Shown here piece after piece: positions 3,026 to 29,858 of a stretch of 64,000 nucleotides of DNA (within the stretch, counting starts at the first letter, position 1; each line of letters starts with the position of its first letter). The position numbers were made by a program, and so were the translations under genes. The stretch covers positions 23,124 through 87,123 of the forward strand of contig JADBKH010000013.1 of assembly GCA_014896485.1 (NCBI GenBank). Reading direction: 5' to 3'. The notes under the pieces are model-generated. The model ran no database searches, was not told the origin of the DNA, and was given only the letters and a program-made list of their open reading frames with translations. Source of the stretch: Bacillota bacterium (lineage in GTDB: Bacteria; Bacillota; Bacilli; Bu12).

Positions 3026-4105
3026 GTGGATGCCGTGGAGCGCGTAACGATTCGTACCGTTGCTGCAGAGTCTGGGGTCTCCCCAGCGACGGTTTCTCGT
3101 GTACTGAACCGTCCCGAACGGGTTGAGGCGCATACGCGGGCCAAGGTCATTGCGGCCATGGAACGCTTGGGCTTTCAGCCAAGTGCGTTGGCACAAGGGT
3201 TGAGTCGCAAGGTGACACAGGCCATTGGCGTGCTCGTTCCCGGATTGGTGGATTTCTTCTTCCCAGAATGGTACGAAAGTGTCTCCCGTGCCGCAGAACG
3301 TTCGGGGCGTCGTCTCCTGCTGTTTGATGCCAAACACAGTGCGCAACGTACCGAAGAGGGATTTGCCTTTCTGGCGGCCCATCGGGTCGACGGTATCCTT
3401 TTTTGCAGTCGGCCGATCGATCCCTATCTTCCGCTGATTCGGCGTCTGAATGTCCCCGTGGTCTTGGCCCTGACCCAATCCGCTCGAGATCCGGTGACTG
3501 CCTTTAAGGTCGACGATGTAAAGGCGATGTTTGATGCGGTGGCATACCTGATCTCCCGTGGACACGAGCAGATTGCCTTGATCTCTGGACCACCACAGGA
3601 CAGTATTGCCGGAACGACGCGTCTGCAAGGTTATCGGCAGGCGCTGCGACATTTTCGCTTGCCGTTGCGCACCGAGTGGATTGGGTACGGGGGCTTTCGG
3701 TTTGAAGATGGCTATCGCGCGATGCAAGAACTGCTTTCAGCGGCTGTCCGGCCGGCCTTTACGGCTGTGGTTGCCGCAAGTGATGAAATGGCCCTCGGCG
3801 CCATCCGCTGCTTGCACGATCAGGGTCTTCGGGTCCCAGAAGATCTTTCCGTCATGGGATTTGACGACCTGCGCCTGGCGCGTATGACCACGCCGACGCT
3901 GACCACCGTCGCCCAGCCGTTTGCAGAGATCGGCGAACGGGCGACGGAAGCGCTGATTGCTGCCATCGATGCCGGCGAGAAATACACGACGGGAGGCATC
4001 CACTACTTACCCCACCGTATTGTACAGCGGGAGTCGGTCTTGCCTCAGGGAGTTAGCACACAGGGTGCCCTGACTCCTACAGCCAATGAAGGGAGCGAAT
4101 CATGA
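3026..4105 (+). CDS. LacI family transcriptional regulator
   Basis: 359 residues. An N-terminal helix-turn-helix (TIRTVAAESGVSPATVSRVLNRPERV) is followed by the hinge and a periplasmic-binding-protein-like effector domain (AIGVLVPGLVDFFFPEW, then VMGFDDLRLARM near the C-terminus). The GTG at 3026 is used; a GTG three codons later is equally possible. It overlaps the downstream binding-protein gene by 4 nt (ATGA), so it probably controls the adjacent sugar importer in response to a carbohydrate. The regulator reads through intact although all three transporter genes after it are broken. Confidence 0.9.
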   Translation: MDAVERVTIRTVAAESGVSPATVSRVLNRPERVEAHTRAKVIAAMERLGFQPSALAQGLSRKVTQAIGVLVPGLVDFFFPEWYESVSRAAERSGRRLLLFDAKHSAQRTEEGFAFLAAHRVDGILFCSRPIDPYLPLIRRLNVPVVLALTQSARDPVTAFKVDDVKAMFDAVAYLISRGHEQIALISGPPQDSIAGTTRLQGYRQALRHFRLPLRTEWIGYGGFRFEDGYRAMQELLSAAVRPAFTAVVAASDEMALGAIRCLHDQGLRVPEDLSVMGFDDLRLARMTTPTLTTVAQPFAEIGERATEALIAAIDAGEKYTTGGIHYLPHRIVQRESVLPQGVSTQGALTPTANEGSES

Positions 4106-5403
4106 GGAAACACAAGGCATTCGGGCTTTTTGGCGGTGCGCTGCTCGGTGCCGCGGTGCTGTTGGCCGGCTGCGGCAGCGGCAACGCGGCCAATCAACCG
4201 TATAGCTCCGGTGGAAATGCAACCCAGACAGCCGGTAGTGGTCCAGTCACCCTCAACGTCTACATGGACCGGGACCCATCGGGTACGTTGGAGAAGGTGG
4301 CCTAGGAATTCAACCAAAAGTACCAAGGCCAAATTCAGGTGAAGATGCAGCAGGCCCCGCCTTCGACCGATGACTACCATTCGATGGCGGTCCGTCAACT
4401 GCAGGCCAAAAGTCCGGAAGTCGATGTCTATGCGATTGACGTCATCTGGGTGCCAGAGTTTGCAGCAGCAGGGTGGGTCAAGGATCTGACCGACAAGCTC
4501 TCGCCGATGAAGGGTGATTACCTCGAGGGACCCATGAATGCAGTGACCTATCAAGGCAAGATGTATGCGGCCCCCTACCGCACCGACACAGGGGTGCTCT
4601 ACTACCGCTCGGATCTGGTCTCCGCGCCGCCAAAGACGTGGACCGATTTGGAAAACGATGCCAAGGCCGGCATGGCCAAAGGGGTGGCCAACGGCTTTGT
4701 CTGGCAGGGCAAACAGTATAAGGGCCTGATCTGCGATTTCCTGGAGTTTGTCTGGAGCAATGGCGGCGATGTCCTCGATGCGGACGGCAAGGTCGTGGTC
4801 AACCAGCCGCAGGCGGTCTAAGCATTGACTGAGATGAAAAAGCTTGTAGACAGTGGCATTTCCCCCAAGGGCGTACTCTCCTATCAAGAAGACGACGCGC
4901 AGAATGTCTTTCGTCAGGGCAACGCGGTCTTCATGCGCAACTGGCCGTATGCCTGGGCGCTCAACCAAGCGAGCAATTCCCCTGTCAAGGGCAAGATTGG
5001 AGTGGCGCCATTACCGACCGGTCCCAGCGGAACGACCCCTTACTCCTGCCTGGGTGGTTGGAACCTGGCAATCAACAGCTACAGCAAGCATCCCGATCAA
5101 GCTTGGACTTTCATCCAGTACATGATGAGCCCGCAAGTCCAGAAAGAGATCGCCCTTGGAGCGAGTTATGAAGGGACCTACAAGGCCATCTATCAAGATC
5201 CGGATGTGATCAAAGCCAATCCCTTCTTCAAAGATCTTTACAACGTTTTGGTCAACACCAAACCGCGTCCGGTAACGCCGTACTATCCGCAGATCAGCCA
5301 GTCCCTGCAAAACCACGTCTCGGCCGCGTTGGCCGGTTCAGAGACGCCCCAGCCGGCATTGGATGCAGCTGCAAACGAGATTCAGACCGCGATCAACCAG
5401 TAG
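4102..5403 (+). pseudogene. Sugar ABC transporter substrate-binding lipoprotein, two in-frame stop codons
   Basis: One continuous frame contains a lipoprotein signal with lipobox LLAGC, then the usual extracellular solute-binding protein family 1 fold (YAAPYRTDTGVLYYRSDL, CLGGWNLAINSYSKH). It is interrupted by TAG at 4303-4305 (between EKVA and EFNQKYQG) and TAA at 4819-4821 (between NQPQAV and ALTEMKKL). The frame does not change, so these look like single substitutions of Lys and Gln codons. The rebuilt protein would have about 433 residues, normal for the family. Stop suppression cannot be excluded, but the other lesions in this operon favour decay. Confidence 0.85.
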
Positions 5404-5479
5404 GAGCAATGCCGGGAAAAGTGGGCTGAGCGTCGTAAAAATGCGGCGCCGGGCTCCTTTTTTAGAGGGGAGGTTGGAG

Positions 5480-6412
5480 ATGGCGACAGACATGCCGACG
5501 TTGCAGGTACCGCCCCCGACGTCAGCGCAGCGAAGCCTATACGGCCTGGTGGATGGTAGCGCCTGCGCTGGTGGTCATCGCTGGGGTTGCTTTCTATCCT
5601 GTAGGGTATTCCATTTACCTCTCGCTGTTTAACATGCACCTGCAGTTTCCACAGTTGACCCATTTTTTGGAGCTTCGCAATTACATCCATCTTTTTTCGG
5701 GGAGCGAATTTTGGCTCGCGCTGCGTAACACGATCTTCTGCACGGCTGTTTCGATCTTGTTGGAAACAGCGCTGGGCCTGTGCTTTGCCCTACTGATGCA
5801 CAAGCGCTCTCCCATTCAGGGGGTTTTACGTGCGGCCATCTTGGTGCCTTGGGCCATTCCGGCGGTCGTTTCTTCCCAGGCATGGCGGCTGATGTTCAAT
5901 GACAGTGAAGGGGTGATCAACGATCTGTTGACCCGCCTGCACCTCCTTCCGCATTACATTGCCTGGCTGGGGCAACCGGGGACGGCAATGGTGGCGATCA
6001 TCACCACCGATGTATGGAAGACCACTCCTTTTATGGCCCTGCTGTTGTTGGCAGGGTTGCAGATGATCCCCGAAGATCTCAATGAAGCTGCGGCAGTCGA
6101 AGGCGCTAGCCCCTGGAAGCGCTTTTGGCGGATTACCTTTCCACTGCTGCAGCCCACCCTGGTCGTTGCGCTCATCTTCCGTACCCTCGATGCAGTGCGG
6201 GTCTTCGATGTGATCAACATCATGACCGGTGGTGGACCCGCCAACCAGACAGAGAGCCTTTCCATCTTTGCCTACAAGTACCTGTTCAACCAGCTCAACA
6301 TGGGCTTCGGATCGGCGATTGCCGTCCTTACGTTCCTCCTGGTCTTTCTGATCAGCCTAATCTAATCTACATCCGCGTACTGGGCAACCCTGCTGCCGAG
6401 GAGGTGCGCTGA
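5480..6412 (+). pseudogene. MalF/UgpA-type sugar ABC permease, two frameshifts
   Basis: The likely start is MATDMPTLQV at 5480, but the membrane domain lies one frame away (EAYTAWWMVAPALVV onward). Dropping one C from the C run at 5513-5517 would join them. Near the 3' end the pentamer TAATC is repeated in tandem (6358-6367), giving LISLI and a stop at 6365. Removing one copy restores SLIYIRVLGNPAAEEVR and a stop at 6412, overlapping the next ATG. The core carries the permease EAA loop (NEAAAVEGASPWKRFWRI). Without repair the product would lack its correct N- and C-termini. Confidence 0.85.
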
Positions 6413-7271
6413 TGGTCGCTTCCACGCCGAAGAGACGGCGATTCCGCGTGCGATGGGGGAAAGTGGGATATTGGGCTGCGGCGATCGCGACGATTGCCTT
6501 TGTTCTCTTTCCGTTTTACTGGCAGATCAACACGTCGCTTAAACCGCAGGCGATCCTGCATGCGGTCCCGGCCCATTGGTGGCCAGGTAGTCATCCTCAC
6601 TGGGGGAACTATCTCGATGTCTTTCGACTCCATCCGTTTGCCCGCTACCTGCTCGACAGCTTAGTCGTTTCGGTGATGACGACATTGCTGGCCTTGCTGT
6701 TTGCGGCCTTTGCCGGATATGCGCTCGGCCGGTTGCACTTTCGGGGCAAGGCTCCGACCCTTTTCGTGGTGCTGGCCGTCTCGATGTTTCCGCCCATTGC
6801 GATCATCAGTCCCCTCTACATCATGTTTTACCAAGCCGGCCTGCTCAGCAGCTATCCGGGCTGATCATCCCTTACCTGACGTTTGCGCTGCCTTTGGACA
6901 TGTGGAATTTGACCAACTTCTTCCGTCAAATCCCCAAGGAGATGGAAGAGGCGGCATTCGTCGACGGAGCCGGGAGGTTGCGGGCCTTTTGGCAAGTGGT
7001 GCTTCCCCTGGCCGGACCGGGGATGTTTACCACGGCCATCCTGACGTTTATCCAGGCTTGGAACGAATACATGATCGCTTTAACTTTCAATACTGCCGAT
7101 CAGCGGCGTACGGTACCCCCGGGCATTGCAATGTTTCAGGGGCAGTTTGACATTCCTTGGGATCAGATCTCAGCAGCTTCGGCGATCGTGACGATTCCGC
7201 TGGTCATCCTGGTGCTGATCCTGCAACGCCGTATCGTCGCGGGATTGACAGCTGGCGCAGTCAAAGGGTAA
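6412..7271 (+). pseudogene. MalG/UgpE-type sugar ABC permease, frameshifted
   Basis: The first part (MVASTPKRRRFRVRWG to LLSSYPG) ends at 6864 and the second continues in another frame from IIPYLTFALPLDMWNLTNFF. One missing C near 6860 (GGCTG where GGCCTG is expected) explains the shift exactly. The second part includes the EAA loop (EMEEAAFVDGAGRLRAFWQ) and the normal C-terminus. The rebuilt protein is about 286 residues, normal for the family. The gene overlaps the preceding permease stop (TGATG). No ATPase gene is present, as is common when a shared MsmX-type ATPase serves several importers. Confidence 0.85.
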
Positions 7272-7291: not shown

Positions 7292-7325
7292 TTGCCTGGG
7301 GGGAGAGGCGGGACGAGCCAGGCAA
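7292..7325. repeat. Inverted repeat after the ABC permease remnant
   Basis: TTGCCTGG (7292-7299) pairs with CCAGGCAA (7318-7325) across an 18-nt loop. There is no T run, so terminator function is uncertain. Confidence 0.35.
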
Positions 7326-7414
7326 AGATCGAGGGGTCATCGGATGGCGCAGTTATCAAAAGATGCCTATGCTTGGAAAGCATGGAGTCGAACGGCGAGG
7401 AGGCCAATACATCG

Positions 7415-10084
7415 ATGGAAGCAGCCGAAGAGGTCTTGTTGCGGGATGGACAGACGGCGATGGTGCGCACTGCTACGGAAACCGATCATGCGCTTGTCGC
7501 TGCATTTGTACGAGCATACACTGCAGAGCCACATCTGTTGGCGTTGTTTGGTGTGGACAGTCCGCTGGAGAGCCGTCTGCCAGGGCAGCGGCACACCCTG
7601 TTGGCCTACCAGGGGAGTGGGGAGGCGCTTCAACTGATCGGCGCAGCCGTGTGGGTGCGCCCAGAGGAGCAGGCGGAGACGGCCGAGGTTGGCTTTCTCG
7701 TCCATCCTGCCAAGCGCCGGCTGGGTTTGGCCTCGATCCTGTTGGAGCGGTTGGCGCTCTCCGCACTCCAGACCGGCATCCACGTCTTTGAAGCGCTTTT
7801 GGCACAGGAGAACCGGGAGATGCTTCAAGTGTTACAGGGCAGTGGCTTTGAGCTGCTTCCCCAAGAAGCCCCGCCGGGTTGGGTGCGCCTGCGCTTTGCC
7901 ATTCGGCCCAACCGCCGCAGCATCGAGATGTCCGAACGGCGAGAGCGGGTGGCGACCATCGCCTCTCTGGTGCCGTTTTTTCGTCCGAAAAGCGTCGCTG
8001 TCATCGGTGCTTCCCGCAACCCCGATGCGATTGGGCGGCGGATCTTCGATTACCTGATCTTCAATCGCTTTCAGGGGCCCGCCTACCCGGTCAACCCTTC
8101 TGCACAGGTGGTTGGCTCTGTGGTGGCCTACCCCAGTGTGAGCGCGATTCCGGGCCCGGTCGATCTGGCAGTGATCGCAGTGCCACGCGACGCGGTCTTG
8201 GGAGTGATCGAGGAATGTGGCAAGAAGGGCATCCGCGCGGCTGTCATCATTACGGCCGGTTTTTCGGAAACCGGCCGTGAAGGGCGGGCATTGCAGGCGC
8301 GGCTGGTCGAAGTGGCGCACAGCTACGGTATGCGCATTATCGGCCCCAACGGACTGGGCCTGATCAACACGGACCCCGCGATTCGTCTCAACGCCAGTTT
8401 TTCGCCGATCTTTCCGCCCCACGGGCATGTGGCGATGTCTTCGCAAAGTGGCGCACTCGGTTTAGCCATCCTGCAGTACGCCCAGCAGATGGAGCTGGGC
8501 CTTTCCAATTTTGTAAGTATTGGAAACAAAGCGGATGTTTCCGGCAACGATTTGATGGAGTACTGGGAGGAAGACCCCCAGACCGACGTGATCCTGCTCT
8601 ACCTGGAGTCGATTCGCAATCCGGTGCGCTTTGCCCGCGTCGCCCGGCGTGTCGGGTGCAAGAAACCCGTGATCGTCGTCAAAAGTGGGCGGACCTCTGC
8701 CGGACACCGTGCGGCGGGTTCCCACACGGCTGCACTGGCCGCCAACGAGAGCCTCGTCGACGCGCTCTTCGCCCAGTCCAGGGTGTTGCGGGTGGATACC
8801 TTGGAAGAAATGTTCGATCTGGCCGCGCTGCTGGCCGATCAGCCCTTGCCTGCCGGCCGACGGGTCGCTGTCGTCACCAACGCGGGTGGTCCTGGGATCT
8901 TGGCCACCGATGCCCTTGCATCAATGGGACTCGAGGTTTCCGAAACTCCAGAAGCGTTGCGTGAGCAGCTGCGTCCCTTCCTTCCGGCAGAAGCGAGCCT
9001 GCACAATCCGGTTGATATGATTGCTTCAGCAACCGCGGATCAGTTTCGACAGACCCTGGAAAAGATGCTCAGCGAGCCTGGGTACGATGCGGCGATGGCC
9101 ATCTTCATTCCAGTTGGGTTGACAGCGACTGCCGAAGTGGCCGAGGCGATTCGCCAGGCTGTTCGCGCGACACGGACTCGGGGGATCGTCAAGCCGGTGA
9201 TCGCTGTCCTGATGGATCAGCAGGCTCCTGCGACGATCGAGGTGGATGGCACCGTAGTGCCCAACTACCGTTTTCCCGAAAGTGCCGCCCGCGCTCTGGC
9301 ACGGGCCTATCAATATGCCCAGTGGCGCACCGAACCGGAGGGCAACATTCCCGATTTTCCCGATTTGGACATTGATAGAGCCCGAGCATTGGTTCGCGAG
9401 GCACAGGCAGAAGGGAAAGATTGGCTCTCTCCGGAAGAGATTGAACGTTTGTTTGCATGCTTCCACTTGCCTACGGTGACCAGCAGGGTGGTGCCTACAC
9501 CCGATGAAGCGGGGGCCGCTGCAGAGCAGCTCGGATTTCCGGTCGTCGTCAAGATGGTCTCGCAGACGTTGCAACATAAGTCCGAGTGGGGAGGCGTCGT
9601 TGTCGGCTTGCAAGAGGGTGCAGCTGTGCGTGACGCGTGTGCATCGATTGCTGCACGACTGCACGCTTCGGGGCATGCGGACGAGCTGGACGGCTTTCTT
9701 ATCCAACAGCAGGTTGTTGGCGGTATCGAGTTGATGGTCGGAATGACGCATGATCCGCAATTTGGCCCACTGGTGGCTTTTGGCTTGGGGGGCATCTATG
9801 TCGAGGTGCTGCGAGACGTGGTCTTTCGCATTACGCCACTGACGGATCGGAATGCCTACGAGATGGTACGCAGCATCCGCGGCTATCGGCTCTTGGAAGG
9901 CTTCCGGGGAACGCCTCCTGCCGATGTTGCTGCCATTGAAGAACTGTTGCTGCGCGTCTCCCGGATGGTCGAAGAACTACCTGAATTGGCCGAGCTGGAC
10001 CTCAATCCCGTCATCGCCTTGCCTCAGGGCGAAGGGTGTCGCATTGTCGATGCGCGGGTGCGTCTTCTCGGTTCCTTGACTTAG
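7415..10084 (+). CDS. GNAT acetyltransferase fused to ADP-forming acyl-CoA synthetase (Pat-like)
   Basis: About 889 residues. An N-terminal GNAT domain (about 15-155, VGFLVHPAKRRLGLASILLERL as the acetyl-CoA loop) precedes the synthetase. The CoA-binding Rossmann domain starts near 186 (SVAVIGASRNPDAIG), ligase-CoA domains follow with the phospho-His motif GSHTAALA near 435, and an ATP-grasp domain lies from about 700 (FPVVVKM to LAELDLNPV). Relatives either make acyl-CoA from acid, ATP and CoA or act as lysine acetyltransferases with a degenerate synthetase half. The ATG at 7415 is chosen for its upstream GAGGAGG; the ATG at 7382 is possible. It precedes the Mo-hydroxylase operon, which has its own promoter. 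Confidence 0.8.
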   Translation: MEAAEEVLLRDGQTAMVRTATETDHALVAAFVRAYTAEPHLLALFGVDSPLESRLPGQRHTLLAYQGSGEALQLIGAAVWVRPEEQAETAEVGFLVHPAKRRLGLASILLERLALSALQTGIHVFEALLAQENREMLQVLQGSGFELLPQEAPPGWVRLRFAIRPNRRSIEMSERRERVATIASLVPFFRPKSVAVIGASRNPDAIGRRIFDYLIFNRFQGPAYPVNPSAQVVGSVVAYPSVSAIPGPVDLAVIAVPRDAVLGVIEECGKKGIRAAVIITAGFSETGREGRALQARLVEVAHSYGMRIIGPNGLGLINTDPAIRLNASFSPIFPPHGHVAMSSQSGALGLAILQYAQQMELGLSNFVSIGNKADVSGNDLMEYWEEDPQTDVILLYLESIRNPVRFARVARRVGCKKPVIVVKSGRTSAGHRAAGSHTAALAANESLVDALFAQSRVLRVDTLEEMFDLAALLADQPLPAGRRVAVVTNAGGPGILATDALASMGLEVSETPEALREQLRPFLPAEASLHNPVDMIASATADQFRQTLEKMLSEPGYDAAMAIFIPVGLTATAEVAEAIRQAVRATRTRGIVKPVIAVLMDQQAPATIEVDGTVVPNYRFPESAARALARAYQYAQWRTEPEGNIPDFPDLDIDRARALVREAQAEGKDWLSPEEIERLFACFHLPTVTSRVVPTPDEAGAAAEQLGFPVVVKMVSQTLQHKSEWGGVVVGLQEGAAVRDACASIAARLHASGHADELDGFLIQQQVVGGIELMVGMTHDPQFGPLVAFGLGGIYVEVLRDVVFRITPLTDRNAYEMVRSIRGYRLLEGFRGTPPADVAAIEELLLRVSRMVEELPELAELDLNPVIALPQGEGCRIVDARVRLLGSLT

Positions 10085-10104: not shown

Positions 10105-10191
10105 AACGTAAGAAGCAATGTTCTTTATTTACTAAATGCCGCTTTATTTGAACGATAACTTTTTGAGCAGGTGAGATGGAGGGTTGTATCC

Positions 10192-10644
10192 ATGCAGATC
10201 AAGGGCGATCAGCTCTTGTCAGGACCTCCGGAAGTCGTCTACGAGCAGCTGATGGATCCCGAGATCTTGGCGAAGGCAATTCCAGGATGCAAAGCGCTGA
10301 ACAAGGTGGCTGAAAACAAGTATCAAGGCGAGCTGGAGTTGGGCGTGGCAGCCATCAAAGGACATTATGTCGGCGAAGTCGAAATCCGGGATCCTCAGCC
10401 GCCCAATCGCTATGTGATGGCGGTTTCAGGGCAGGGAGGTCCGGGCTTTGTCAATGCCGAGCTGAACTTTACCCTTACCCCCCACGGCAACGATACGAGC
10501 CTGTATTACGAAGGAGAGGCCCAAGTGGGGGGCAAAATCGCCGGCGTCGGCCAACGAATGTTGGGCGGTGTGGCCAAAATGATCGCCAAGCAATTTTTCT
10601 CGGCGATGTCGAAGGCGATCGCGGCACAAGAGAAGACCCAGTGA
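10192..10644 (+). CDS. CoxG-like SRPBCC family protein
   Basis: 150 residues of the carbon monoxide dehydrogenase subunit G family: lipid/ligand-binding START-like fold, with the typical opening MQIKGDQLLSGPPEVVYEQLMDPEILAKAIPGC. In Oligotropha, CoxG helps anchor the CO dehydrogenase to the membrane, and related proteins recruit other hydroxylases or carry quinone or lipid. The ATG at 10192 follows GGAGGG at good spacing. It is the first gene after the promoter at 10076-10104 and lies 49 nt before the FAD subunit. The long C-terminal tail of some CoxG proteins is absent. Confidence 0.85.
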   Translation: MQIKGDQLLSGPPEVVYEQLMDPEILAKAIPGCKALNKVAENKYQGELELGVAAIKGHYVGEVEIRDPQPPNRYVMAVSGQGGPGFVNAELNFTLTPHGNDTSLYYEGEAQVGGKIAGVGQRMLGGVAKMIAKQFFSAMSKAIAAQEKTQ

Positions 10645-10693
10645 TTTTCTTTGGGAAGTATGCAGTCCGAATGTACAAGGGGGAGGTGCCTCG

Positions 10694-11569
10694 GTGAAGC
10701 CAGCGACGTTTTCATATGCGGCACCACGTACGGTGGAAGAGGCGATCGAGCTGTTGGAAGCTTACGGGGACGACGCCAAGGTATTGGCTGGGGGTCAAAG
10801 TTTGGTGCCGCTGCTGAACATGCGGTTGGCACAGCCCAAAGTCTTGGTCGACATCAATGCGGTGGAAGGTTTTGACGAGATCGTCGAAGAGGAAGGTTTC
10901 GTCTATGTCCCGATGCGGGTGCGCCATGTGCAGGGCGAACGCTCGCCGTTGCTTCGGGAAAAGCTGCCGGTCGTCAGCGAAGCAGTGCACCAGATCGGCC
11001 ATCCCCAGATCCGCAATCGTGGGACCATGTGTGGAAGTGTGGCCCACGCCGATCCGGCGTCGGAATTGCCCGCCGTCTTGATGGCGCTGGACGGTCGGAT
11101 AGTGGTGAAAAGCGGGGACGGAGAGGAACAGATTACGCCAGAAGATTTCTTTTTAACTTATTTGACCACCTCCCTGCAGCCGGGACAGTTGGTGACCGCG
11201 TTGCGCTTTCCGCTTTTGCCGCCCAATAGCAGTGCTGCCTTTGTCGAATTTGCCCAACGTCCAGGGGACTTTGCCCTCTGTGGCGTGGCGGCCTACCTGC
11301 ATCTGGATGAGGGTGGGACGATTGCCGAGGCACGCCTGGCCCTGATGGGTGTCGGCGGCACGCCGTTTTGTGCAGAACAGGCTGAAGCAGTACTCCAGGG
11401 AGAGCGCCCTTCGGCAGCGTTGTTTGCCGAAGCGGCAGAGACAGTCAGCCAAGAGGTCGATCCGGATAGCGACATTCATGCCTCAGCCGAATACCGCCGC
11501 CACCTGGCCAAAGTACTTATCCCACAAGCGTTGGAAATGGCTGCAGCACGTCTTGGAGAGGAGCGGTGA
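10694..11569 (+). CDS. Mo-hydroxylase FAD-binding (medium, CoxM-like) subunit
   Basis: 291 residues of the FAD-binding PCMH type. The signature FAD motif AGGQSLVPLLNMR is near residue 33 and the second motif IRNRGTMCGSVAHADP near residue 105. The C-terminal CO-dehydrogenase flavoprotein domain follows. It passes electrons from the 2Fe-2S subunit to an external acceptor. The GTG start has GGGGGAGG upstream. It overlaps the small-subunit gene by 4 nt (GTGA), so the two are translationally coupled. The substrate of the complex cannot be told from this subunit. Confidence 0.9.
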   Translation: MKPATFSYAAPRTVEEAIELLEAYGDDAKVLAGGQSLVPLLNMRLAQPKVLVDINAVEGFDEIVEEEGFVYVPMRVRHVQGERSPLLREKLPVVSEAVHQIGHPQIRNRGTMCGSVAHADPASELPAVLMALDGRIVVKSGDGEEQITPEDFFLTYLTTSLQPGQLVTALRFPLLPPNSSAAFVEFAQRPGDFALCGVAAYLHLDEGGTIAEARLALMGVGGTPFCAEQAEAVLQGERPSAALFAEAAETVSQEVDPDSDIHASAEYRRHLAKVLIPQALEMAAARLGEER

Positions 11570-12090
11570 ACATGGTCATACCGGTAGAGACGGCAACGAT
11601 TACGGTGACGGTCGACGGCCGCCCTTATACAGCGACGGTCGAAGCGCGCAAGACACTGGCGGATTTCCTTCGGGAAGAGTGTGGGCTGACAGGCACCCAC
11701 CTGGGTTGCGAACACGGCGTCTGTGGGGCCTGTACGGTCTTGCTCAATGACAGCGCGGTGCGCTCCTGCCTGACCTTTGCCATCCAGGCGGACGGCCAAG
11801 AGGTGATGACCGTCGAGGGATTGGCAGCACCAGATGGCACCCTGCATCCCATCCAGCAGGCCTTCTGGGAGAATCACGCTCTCCAATGCGCCTTCTGTAC
11901 ATCGGGTTTTCTGATGACCACCTACGCCTTTTTGAAGGAAAACCCCAATCCGAGTGAGGAAGAGATCCGCGAGACGCTCACTGGAAACATCTGCCGCTGC
12001 ACGGGGTATCAGAATATTGTGGCGGCAGTCGCAGATGCGGCAGCCCGGTTACGTGGGGAGAAGCACACTCAACCGGTAGGGGGTGTGTGA
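11566..12090 (+). CDS. Mo-hydroxylase 2Fe-2S (small, CoxS-like) subunit
   Basis: 174 residues. The N-terminal plant-ferredoxin-like cluster uses CEHGVCGACTVLL, and the C-terminal four-helix cluster uses CAFCTSGF and CRCTGYQNIV. These are all the cysteines expected for the proximal and distal 2Fe-2S centres. It relays electrons from the molybdenum centre to FAD. It starts with GTG overlapping the FAD-subunit stop; the ATG two codons later is an alternative. It carries a slightly extended N-terminus (about ten residues before the ferredoxin strand) and ends immediately before the large-subunit ATG. Confidence 0.9.
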   Translation: MNMVIPVETATITVTVDGRPYTATVEARKTLADFLREECGLTGTHLGCEHGVCGACTVLLNDSAVRSCLTFAIQADGQEVMTVEGLAAPDGTLHPIQQAFWENHALQCAFCTSGFLMTTYAFLKENPNPSEEEIRETLTGNICRCTGYQNIVAAVADAAARLRGEKHTQPVGGV

Positions 12091-12091
12091 G

Positions 12092-14437
12092 ATGAGCGCG
12101 CCGATTGCCACTCGCCCCCAATTTGCCGGCCAACGGATCAAGCGCCTGGAAGATCCCCGTTTTCTGACCGGCCACGGACAGTATGTGGCCGATATCCAAC
12201 TGAGTGGAACCGTACATGTCGCCTTTGTGCGCAGCAATTATGCCCATGCCCACATCAAAGGGATCAACGCCGAGGAGGCACGGAAAGATCCCCGCTGTTT
12301 CGCTGTCTTGACCGGAGCGGAACTGGCCCAGGCGAAGGTCTTTTTGCCGGGCGCACAAAATGCCCCCTTGCCGGCGCTGGCGATCGACGAGGTCTGCTAC
12401 GTGGGCCAGCCGATCTGCGCCGTGGTGGCCACCGATCGCTATGCCGCCGAGGATTTGGCCGAGACGATCGAGGTAAATTACGATCCGTTGCCGGCGGTCG
12501 TCGATACCCTGGCGGCGACACAACCCAATGCGCCCAAGGCCAACCTGGCTTTCCCTACACCGGGAAACGTCTTTTTCCACATGGAGCACGCGACCGATGG
12601 GATCGACGATCTCTTCGCTGATCCACAGGTGGTGGTGGTTCGCCAAACCTTCCGCACGCAGCGACAGACCGGCATGCCCATGGAGACGCGTGGCATTGTG
12701 GCCAGCTGGGAGCCTGGGACCGCATCGTTGACCGTCTATGCAGCGACCCAGATGCCCCATGGACTACGGGACACCCTGGCGGCAGCCTTGCACCTCTCCC
12801 AGTCGAAAGTCCGGGTTATCTCGCCGGATGTCGGCGGGGGTTTCGGCATGAAAGCACCGGTCTATCCGGAAGACGTCGTCGTCAGCTTCTTGGCCCAGCA
12901 GTTGGGGCGGCCCGTCAAGTGGATCTCCGATCGGCGCGAAGGGATTCTCGCCGATACCCATGCCCGCGACGGCTTGCACATCGCCGAAGCGGCTTTCAGC
13001 AAGGATGGCCTCTTTTTGGGACTGCGTGACCACATGATCTCACCGGCTGGGGCGTACCCGCTTGGGCTCTCGGGTGCTGTGGCGGAGACCGTGCTGGCGA
13101 CCCTGGTGCTGCCTGGCCCCTACAAGGTGCAGCAATACGCCTGGCAGATCGATGGCGTACTGACCAATACCACGCCGACCGGCACCTATCGGGGCGTGTG
13201 GGGACCGGCGGCTACCTGGGTGCAGGAGGGCATGATCGAGCGCGCGGCCCGCCAGCTCGGGATCGATCGGGTGGAGATTCGCCTGAAGAACATGGTGCGG
13301 AAAGAGGAATTCCCCTATCACTCGGTCGCCGGTGTCGTCTATGATCCCGGCTCTTACCAGGAATCGCTGCAGTTGGCGATGGAGAAGATCGGCTACGCCG
13401 GTTTTGAAGAAGAACGTCGCCAGGCGGCGGCGCAAGGACGCACTTTGGGGTTGGGTATCGCCTGCTTCATCGAGCCGACGGCGATGGGGGTGATGGGTGA
13501 CGAACCGCTGACGGTTCCCAACGACGTCGCTTCGATTCGCATCGAGCCATCTGGCCAGGTGATCGCCCAGGTGGGGATCTCCAGCCATGGACAGGGGCAC
13601 GAGACGACCGTTGCCCAGCTCATCGCCGATCAGCTCGGCGTCGATGTGCAAAACGTGACGGTGCTCCACGGTGATACGGCAGCCGTGCCTTATGGCGGCG
13701 GCACAGGTGGCAGCCGCTCGATCACGATCGGTGGCGGTGCGGCTATTTTGGCGGCCCAAGAGTTGCGTCAGAAGGTGTTGCAGATTGCCGGTCACCTGCT
13801 GGAGGCGGCACCCGAAGATCTGGAGATCGCAGACAGCACCATCCAGGTCAAGGGCGTTCCGGGGCGTACGGTGACCCTTGCCCAAGTGGCTCAGACCGCC
13901 TATATGCTGCCGCAAAAGTTGCCGCAGGGAGTGGAACCGGGCTTGGAGGCCACCAAACGCTACACGCCACCCCCGATCACCTTCTCCAACGGTTGTCACG
14001 CTGCAGTTGTCGAGATCGACCGTGCGACCGGTGCAGTCAAGGTACTTCGCTATGTGGTGGTCGAAGATTGCGGCAAGATGGTCAACCCGATGATTGTCGA
14101 AGGGCAGATCACCGGCGGCGTCGCCCAAGGGGTGGGCAGTGCTTTTCTGGAGCAGCTGGTCTACGATGAGAACGGGCAGTTGATGACGACGACCTGGATG
14201 GATTACCTGATGCCGGAGAGTACCGACGCGCCAAAAGTGGATTTTGGGCATATCGAAACGCCAAGCCAAAACCCGGGTGGAATGAAAGGAATGGGGGAGT
14301 CGTCGCTGATCGCTTCGCCAACTGCGCTGGTAAGTGCTGTCGAAGATGCGCTGGGGGTTTGGGTGGGGGCGTTGCCCTTGACGCCACAGCGGGTACTTGC
14401 TTTGGCAGAAGGCCGGCAGGAGGATGCGGGGGCATAA
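12092..14437 (+). CDS. Mo-hydroxylase molybdopterin (large) subunit, xanthine dehydrogenase family, substrate unknown
   Basis: About 781 residues of the aldehyde oxidase/xanthine dehydrogenase large-subunit fold. The opening RIKRLEDPRFLTGHGQYVADI is CoxL-like; the molybdopterin-contacting GGGFGMKAP and the catalytic Glu region KGMGESSLIASP are present. The loop that in form I CO dehydrogenase reads AYxCSFR (Cys bound to copper) and in form II AYRGAGR reads TYRGVWGP here, without the cysteine. It is therefore not a classical CO dehydrogenase. It could oxidise an aromatic, N-heterocyclic or CoA-bound substrate; this is open. The ATG at 12092 follows GTAGGGGG. Confidence 0.85.
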   Translation: MSAPIATRPQFAGQRIKRLEDPRFLTGHGQYVADIQLSGTVHVAFVRSNYAHAHIKGINAEEARKDPRCFAVLTGAELAQAKVFLPGAQNAPLPALAIDEVCYVGQPICAVVATDRYAAEDLAETIEVNYDPLPAVVDTLAATQPNAPKANLAFPTPGNVFFHMEHATDGIDDLFADPQVVVVRQTFRTQRQTGMPMETRGIVASWEPGTASLTVYAATQMPHGLRDTLAAALHLSQSKVRVISPDVGGGFGMKAPVYPEDVVVSFLAQQLGRPVKWISDRREGILADTHARDGLHIAEAAFSKDGLFLGLRDHMISPAGAYPLGLSGAVAETVLATLVLPGPYKVQQYAWQIDGVLTNTTPTGTYRGVWGPAATWVQEGMIERAARQLGIDRVEIRLKNMVRKEEFPYHSVAGVVYDPGSYQESLQLAMEKIGYAGFEEERRQAAAQGRTLGLGIACFIEPTAMGVMGDEPLTVPNDVASIRIEPSGQVIAQVGISSHGQGHETTVAQLIADQLGVDVQNVTVLHGDTAAVPYGGGTGGSRSITIGGGAAILAAQELRQKVLQIAGHLLEAAPEDLEIADSTIQVKGVPGRTVTLAQVAQTAYMLPQKLPQGVEPGLEATKRYTPPPITFSNGCHAAVVEIDRATGAVKVLRYVVVEDCGKMVNPMIVEGQITGGVAQGVGSAFLEQLVYDENGQLMTTTWMDYLMPESTDAPKVDFGHIETPSQNPGGMKGMGESSLIASPTALVSAVEDALGVWVGALPLTPQRVLALAEGRQEDAGA

Positions 14438-14458
14438 CCGAACCTCCCGCAAAGTGGG

Positions 14459-15367
14459 ATGCAGAAGCGGGGGATGAGCGTCATCGAGGGATTGGATGCG
14501 GCAGCGATTCAACGTGCACTGCGCGAGCGGCACTACCTCGCCGAGATGTCGGTTGCAGTCGCTTTGCAGTTGGTGCTGACGCTGGAGAAGCCCTTGTTGA
14601 TCGAGGGGCCGGCTGGCGTCGGCAAAACAGAGATTGCCAAAACGCTGGCCGACGTGTTGCAAACGCGGCTGATTCGGCTGCAGTGCTACGAGGGATTGGA
14701 TGCGACAACAGCGCTGTATGAGTGGAACTATCCGAAGCAGATGCTGCACATTCGCTTGAGTGAACAATCTGACCAAAGCGTCGCCGAGCGCGAAGCCGAG
14801 ATCTTTGGCGAGTCGTTTTTGCTGCGGCGACCGCTGTTGGAAGCGATTAGCCAACCCGATGCTTCTCCCGTTCTACTCATCGATGAGATCGACCGTGCCG
14901 ATGAGGCATTTGAGGCTTTCTTGTTGGAGTTGCTCGGTGAGTTTCAGGTGACGATTCCAGAGTTGGGGACGATTAAGGCCAAGCATCGGCCCTATGTCCT
15001 CCTGACCAGCAACCGGACGCGGGAGCTCTCCGACGCGCTGCGGCGGCGCTGCCTGTATCAATGGATTCCTTATCCCGACAGGCAGAAAGAGCAAGAGATC
15101 CTCCAGGCCCGCGTGCCCGGCATCGACCAGCGTCTAGCTGCCGAGATCGCTGCATTCGTCGCTCAGTTGCGCGAACTGCCGTTGAGCAAGGTGCCGGGTG
15201 CTTCAGAGACCCTCGATTGGGCGAACGCGCTGATCCTGCTGCATCGGGATGCACTCGACGAGCAGACCGTGCGCGAGACCCTTTCCTGTCTGCTCAAGGA
15301 TCGGGAAGATGTGGAGATCCTCGAAAATTCCGGCGTGGCACAATTGCTGGCTACAGCAAAGAGGTGA
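14459..15367 (+). CDS. MoxR/CoxD-type AAA+ ATPase
   Basis: 302 residues. Walker A GPAGVGKTE is near residue 48, Walker B LLIDEIDRAD near 145, sensor 1 LTSNRTRELSDALRRRC near 185. CoxD of CO dehydrogenase operons is a partially unfolding chaperone that helps build the metal-sulfur active site. By position this protein should mature the large subunit encoded just upstream. The VWA partner (CoxE) usually encoded next to it is missing in this operon. The start at 14459 (MQKRGMSV) or the ATG at 14474 cannot be resolved. Confidence 0.85.
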   Translation: MQKRGMSVIEGLDAAAIQRALRERHYLAEMSVAVALQLVLTLEKPLLIEGPAGVGKTEIAKTLADVLQTRLIRLQCYEGLDATTALYEWNYPKQMLHIRLSEQSDQSVAEREAEIFGESFLLRRPLLEAISQPDASPVLLIDEIDRADEAFEAFLLELLGEFQVTIPELGTIKAKHRPYVLLTSNRTRELSDALRRRCLYQWIPYPDRQKEQEILQARVPGIDQRLAAEIAAFVAQLRELPLSKVPGASETLDWANALILLHRDALDEQTVRETLSCLLKDREDVEILENSGVAQLLATAKR

Positions 15368-15371
15368 GGAT

Positions 15372-15722
15372 ATGAGCGAGATGGATCAAGTCTTTGAGAC
15401 GATCGAAGAAGCAAGGCAAAAAGGAGAGCCTGTCGCCGTCGCGACCGTCGTGCGGGTAAACGGTTCTGCCTACCGGCGGGAGGGAGCCAAACTCGCCGTC
15501 GATGCTTCTGGCAATGTCCACGGTACGATCTCAGGGGGTTGTTTGGAACCAGACGTGGCAGAAGTGGCCAAAGAGGTCTTGCGCAGTGGTCAGCCGGCGC
15601 TGCGCCATTACGACTTGGATGAAGATACTGTCTTCAGCTTGGGACTGGGCTGCAGTGGGACCGTCGACGTCTACATCGAACCAGTCGTGTCGCAGACGCC
15701 GGAGGATTCGGAACATGCCTGA
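15372..15722 (+). CDS. XdhC-like protein, CoxI domain only
   Basis: 116 residues covering the N-terminal XdhC/CoxI domain. The conserved VATVVRVNGSAYRREGAKL and the cysteine motif GTISGGCLEPDV are present, then a short acidic tail and no Rossmann domain. XdhC proteins bind molybdenum cofactor, promote its sulfuration and insert it into xanthine dehydrogenase-type enzymes. ATG at 15372 with GAGGTGAGGA just upstream, four bases after the MoxR gene stop. It overlaps the next gene, a longer XdhC paralogue, by 8 nt, so the two may work as a pair. Confidence 0.8.
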   Translation: MSEMDQVFETIEEARQKGEPVAVATVVRVNGSAYRREGAKLAVDASGNVHGTISGGCLEPDVAEVAKEVLRSGQPALRHYDLDEDTVFSLGLGCSGTVDVYIEPVVSQTPEDSEHA

Positions 15723-16521
15723 AACGCCTTTCGACCACTGGGTGGCCGCCGCCACCCAAGGACGTGCGGCGGTGTTGGTGACCCTGTTGGAAGGCCCAGC
15801 TTCGCTGCAACCAGGGCGCAAACGTTTTGTCGGCGAAGACGGCCAATATATTGGGACGCTGGGGACAGAAGCGCTCGATGCCTTTGCAACGCAGGTGGCA
15901 CAGGAAAAGTTGGGAGAGCTTTACCCCAAAAGTGAGAGCCGCATCGTTCAGACACCGGAGGGAGAGGCCAGCCTCTTCTTTGATGTGACGATTCCGACTT
16001 CGCAGCTTGTCTTGTTTGGCGCTGGGCATGATGCCATTCCGCTGGCACAGTTGGGAAGCCAAGTTGGGTTTCGTGTTACAGTTGTCGACGGGCGGCCTGC
16101 CTATGCTACGCCGGAACGCTTTCCGACCGCACAAGTCCTTTTGGCCCGTCCGGAGGCGCTGTCCGATCACGTGCAGCTGGATCCGCGCAGCTACGCGGTG
16201 ATCATGAATCATCATCTGGAACGCGATCGGGAAAGCCTGCGCTTCACCCTCGATTCCCCTGCTGCCTATGTGGGGGTGCTGGGTCCGCGCAAGCGCTGTC
16301 AGCGCATGCTCGATGCACTGCAGCAGGCGGGCTTTACGCCTTCGGCGCAACAGATGGAAAAGATGCATTCTCCGGTCGGACTGGATATCGGAGCAGAGAG
16401 CCCCGAGGAGGTCGCCGTCAGCATCGTCGCGGAAGTGTTGGCGGTACGCAGTGGCCATCGGGGTGGCTTTCTGCGTGAACGGGAAGGTGCCATTCACGAG
16501 CGTGCCGGCACTCCTGCGTAA
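15715..16521 (+). CDS. XdhC family protein with Rossmann domain
   Basis: 268 residues. A degenerate CoxI-like N-terminal domain (RAAVLVTLLEGPASLQPGRKRF, with no GGC motif) precedes the XdhC_C Rossmann domain (LVLFGAGHDAIPLAQLGSQVGF, then VVDGRPAYATPERFP and IMNHHLERD). The C-terminus (GLDIGAESPEEVAVSIVAEVLAV) is canonical. Probably a molybdenum-cofactor carrier or sulfuration factor for the hydroxylase. The GGC cysteine is present in the short paralogue just upstream and missing here, which suggests divided labour between the two. The 3' end overlaps the following transferase gene. Confidence 0.8.
   Translation: MPETPFDHWVAAATQGRAAVLVTLLEGPASLQPGRKRFVGEDGQYIGTLGTEALDAFATQVAQEKLGELYPKSESRIVQTPEGEASLFFDVTIPTSQLVLFGAGHDAIPLAQLGSQVGFRVTVVDGRPAYATPERFPTAQVLLARPEALSDHVQLDPRSYAVIMNHHLERDRESLRFTLDSPAAYVGVLGPRKRCQRMLDALQQAGFTPSAQQMEKMHSPVGLDIGAESPEEVAVSIVAEVLAVRSGHRGGFLREREGAIHERAGTPA

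Positions 16522-26218: not shown

Positions 26219-29858
<3,640 letters not shown>

Follow-up and report, generated by a model that had tools for sequence, protein, structure and literature searches.

A probably inactivated LacI-associated CUT1 sugar importer operon in a Bacillota genome

Gene content and layout of the operon

The window analysed here is a 64,000-nucleotide stretch (C5:23124-87123) of a 2.17 Mb assembly comprising 65 contigs, with 96% completeness and 0.9% contamination. All features of the locus described below lie on the + strand. The first of them is an intact gene for a LacI-family regulator (3026-4105; Pfam LacI and Peripla_BP_3), the product of which aligns with residues 5-332 of an intact homologue of 345 aa at 36% identity. 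Its stop codon overlaps the start (ATGA) of a gene for a CUT1 solute-binding lipoprotein (SBP; 4102-5403), which has an LLAGC lipobox, belongs to the SBP_bac_1 family (PF01547, 2.7e-45 with stops read as X), and is, as read, a pseudogene with two in-frame stops. The next gene, encoding permease 1 (MalF/UgpA-like; 5480-6412), starts with the ATG at 5480 and is expected to end at 6410-6412, overlapping the start of permease 2; it is broken near both ends, leaving an open part at 5553-6365. Permease 2 (MalG/UgpE-like; 6412-7271) is broken mid-gene, and both parts match one intact homologue. Permease 1 carries the BPD_transp_1 domain (PF00528), as does permease 2 in its C-terminal half. The lacI-SBP-permease-permease genes thus form a compact operon. 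The following gene (7292-10084), for an intact ADP-forming acyl-CoA synthetase with an N-terminal GNAT acetyltransferase domain, lies outside the importer.

The operon has no ATPase gene of its own. The only UgpC/MsmX-type ATPase of the genome above the NF008653 cut-off is intact and located at C25:43491-44579, and the ATPase for the importer would have been supplied from there. The operon is of the ordinary MsmX-dependent CUT1 (oligosaccharide) importer type. Such importers of Firmicutes include MdxEFG, AraNPQ, and GanSPQ of Bacillus subtilis (PMC7658222), with which it shares an SBP and two MalF/MalG-type permeases lacking their own ATPase, together with a single UgpC/MsmX-type ATPase encoded elsewhere. 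Unlike in the B. subtilis systems, all three genes of the operon are disrupted.

Farther along the window, positions 10171-16501 hold a cluster of the aerobic CO-dehydrogenase/aldehyde oxidoreductase type, in which all genes are intact: a coxG-like gene, those for the FAD, 2Fe-2S, and Mo subunits, and a CoxI/XdhC N-domain gene that overlaps a further one. An apparent break at 15288-16497 was rejected, since the CoxI/XdhC N-domain gene there simply overlaps the gene that follows it.

Lesions and their homologues

An earlier note on this DNA had described five lesions in three adjacent genes, flanked by an intact lacI and an intact synthetase gene. All five are present in the sequence, within 3.17 kb, and intact homologues extend across each break point open to testing; the flanking lacI and synthetase genes (3.9 kb) are indeed free of lesions. 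The SBP gene is interrupted in frame by a TAG at 4303-4305 and a TAA at 4819-4821. In permease 1, the frame changes at a C-run (5513-5517), between codons ~10 and ~18, and near the other end a tandem CTAAT duplication (6357-6361/6362-6366) creates a TAA at 6363-6365. In permease 2, a 1-nt frame change at CCGGG (6856-6864) is followed by a TGA at 6862-6864. As read, the CUT1 importer operon is non-functional: the SBP would end after 67 residues and the permeases would likewise be truncated, so that no complete importer would be made.

The closest operon retrieved by the permease 1 search was that of a Thermoanaerobacteraceae MAG (locus L009, JASEJQ010000002.1). It is intact, showing 56% identity for permease 1, 46% over 429 residues for the SBP, and 63% for the C-terminal part of permease 2. 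Its intact 442-aa SBP flanks the TAA codon, matching with residues 84-248 on one side and 250-442 on the other, and the two parts of permease 2 align with a single intact protein of 284 aa, at residues 8-148 and 148-284, respectively. The TAA break of the SBP was seen against 101 homologues and the break of permease 2 against 111. No orthologue closer than 56% identity to permease 1 and no close relative was found among the genomes compared, which belong to the same class at nearest (rpoB ≤74%).

It is scarcely credible that the genes are expressed by recoding, that is, by stop readthrough and programmed frameshifting. No support for it was found; the five events differ from one another and involve TAG, TAA, and TGA codons as well as a 5-bp duplication. 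Moreover, translation under table 11 is normal for rpoB and the ribosomal genes, and no internal in-frame stops occur among 43 ABC ATPase domain matches of the genome.

Lesion frequency and sequencing error

The frequency of broken genes elsewhere in the genome was estimated with a coding model trained on the host genome and applied to 812 kb sampled by stretches, where only homologue-supported breaks were counted. The HMM frame-switch list alone was not used because it contained too many ambiguous gene overlaps. The first homology screen also gave antisense matches; these, like the tandem ABC ATPases on C28, were dismissed as artefacts, and matches at C9:5226-5583 and C65:18.6 kb were excluded from the count as doubtful ORFs. 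The control, a sample partly biased toward transporter contigs, covered 327 kb away from the three damaged sugar loci and consisted of 386 ORFs with homologue support. Three broken genes were detected in these 327 kb, namely rpoC, a frame-broken D-Ala-D-Ala carboxypeptidase gene (C25, 13712-14654), and a frame-broken APC-type permease gene (C9, 5720-7145) with an extra C in a run of five C. No nonsense break was found in the control genes by the homology screen. Outside the sample, a Pfam search revealed an acyl-CoA synthetase (AMP-binding) split over three frames (C45, 1608-3101); further possible breaks concern a few MFS matches on C12 and C32.

At the control rate, 0.03 breaks would be expected in 3.17 kb, versus the five lesions of the operon. 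The screen itself detects two of the five, since the remaining three are located close to gene ends or in a leader that is poorly conserved; counting just these two, P is ~4e-4, or 3e-3 at the upper 95% control rate. The occurrence of five lesions in 3.17 kb is not a matter of chance. Lesions scattered equally over many other genes had been named in advance as an observation that would speak against decay of the operon; other genes are indeed hit, but sparsely and not equally.

The broken rpoC gene lies in the same window (26231-29858), 19 kb from the operon, and its frame is lost at a G-run (26490-26492). The part at 26231-26497 corresponds to RpoC residues 13-99 with 85% identity, and the part at 26493-29780 to residues 99-1193 with 72-73%; rpoB is present in a single copy. 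As no living cell would plausibly carry a broken rpoC, the break is almost certainly an assembly error. If the split were real, an RpoC divided after the N-terminal zinc-ribbon region would be remarkable. The G-run break of rpoC and the C-run break of the C9 permease show that the assembly does contain homopolymer indel errors, and the C-run of permease 1 is the same kind of context as that of the C9 permease. Two of the five operon lesions are located at C/G runs (the C-run of permease 1 and the G-run of permease 2), so one or two of the five may be assembly errors. Taken further, these observations would allow the operon to be intact in the organism, with all or nearly all lesions being assembly or sequencing errors in a poorly covered stretch, where locally reduced read depth could concentrate errors. 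Nevertheless, such an explanation is unlikely. The two nonsense substitutions and the 5-bp duplication do not belong to the class of homopolymer errors and speak more strongly for true decay, the control genes contain no nonsense break, and the flanking 3.9 kb are clean. In addition, other damaged loci fall into the same functional category and include a deletion of ~30 codons. The earlier view that sequencing error hardly explains the lesions is therefore not supported in the form given: in light of the rpoC and C9 breaks, the C-run and G-run lesions are suspect, and only the nonsense codons and the CTAAT duplication are of another class. In this draft assembly, pseudogene calls need to be separated from homopolymer indel errors, to which even rpoC is subject.

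Damaged carbohydrate loci and probable loss of uptake

A second CUT1 operon (C4:8012-11108), which also has a lacI-type gene next to it, is damaged in all three genes: the SBP gene by a small deletion, permease 1 by a TAA, and permease 2 by the loss of ~30 codons. The neighbouring sulfatase gene (locus to 12620) is frame-broken at a C-run. A third locus (C64:1-4200) comprises an N-truncated SBP gene, a GH130 gene with an internal stop, and intact permease genes. Four CUT1 operons are full length and intact, on C65, C12, C64 (31.6-34.7 kb), and C59. The clustering of damage at carbohydrate loci supports a real loss of some carbohydrate uptake.

The truncated SBP/permease locus on C64 is foreign DNA by composition, its 1.3-4.2 kb part being atypical, with a lower G+C content, a GC3 of 0.42-0.46, and a coding score near 0. 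By analogy, the C5 operon could be decaying foreign DNA that was never functional in this host. This is very improbable, however, as the composition of the operon is native and it forms a single overlapping unit with lacI. The coding score of its broken genes is 0.05-0.10 per nt, compared with a median of 0.074, and their GC3 is 0.67-0.74. The retained native coding score and GC3 point to a recent inactivation. Permease 1 is changed at 7 of 54 near-invariant sites, which is a high fraction, but intact paralogues reach similar ones.

The L009 operon, although the closest relative, differs from the C5 operon in being intact, in adjoining genes for a GH65 enzyme and beta-phosphoglucomutase, and in having no lacI directly upstream. 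Judging from these neighbours, the substrate of the lost importer was probably an alpha-glucoside. No GH65 was found in the host genome, which encodes one intact cyclomaltodextrinase-like GH13.

Most likely, the locus is what remains of an MsmX-dependent CUT1 oligosaccharide importer operon under LacI regulation that was genuinely and fairly recently inactivated. The clustering of lesions here, the damage at two other sugar loci, and the intact state of four CUT1 importers are best read as a genuine loss of carbohydrate uptake. At least three carbohydrate loci (C5, C4, and C64) would then be damaged, a pattern compatible with relaxed selection on part of the sugar-uptake routes, with the shared ATPase and four further CUT1 importers retained. 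Recent relaxed selection with loss of an uptake route had also been proposed in the earlier note. The identification of a CUT1 importer, non-functional as read, and the concentration of lesions at the operon and two sugar loci bear out this proposal in part, and what speaks for its recency is the retained coding composition and the conserved motifs.

The locus is probably an ordinary pseudogene operon, a kind with many known parallels. Streptococcus thermophilus has 13% pseudogenes, among which carbohydrate transport and metabolism are prominent, and a remnant of a maltose/maltodextrin ABC transporter was described in two strains (PMC3231929). As in that species, sugar-importer pseudogenes occur here at several loci while some routes are intact. 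The decay in S. thermophilus is common to strains and fits the milk niche, whereas the decay of the C5 operon is known from one genome. More tentatively, and with rather low confidence, an otherwise unsampled lineage of approximately order level, equipped with genes of the aerobic CO-dehydrogenase type, might be losing several sugar importers in parallel (C5, C4, and C64) but retaining four importers along with the shared ATPase, which would indicate a shift away from oligosaccharide feeding. The locus documents a partial loss of carbohydrate uptake, on the best reading a genuine one, in a poorly sampled lineage.
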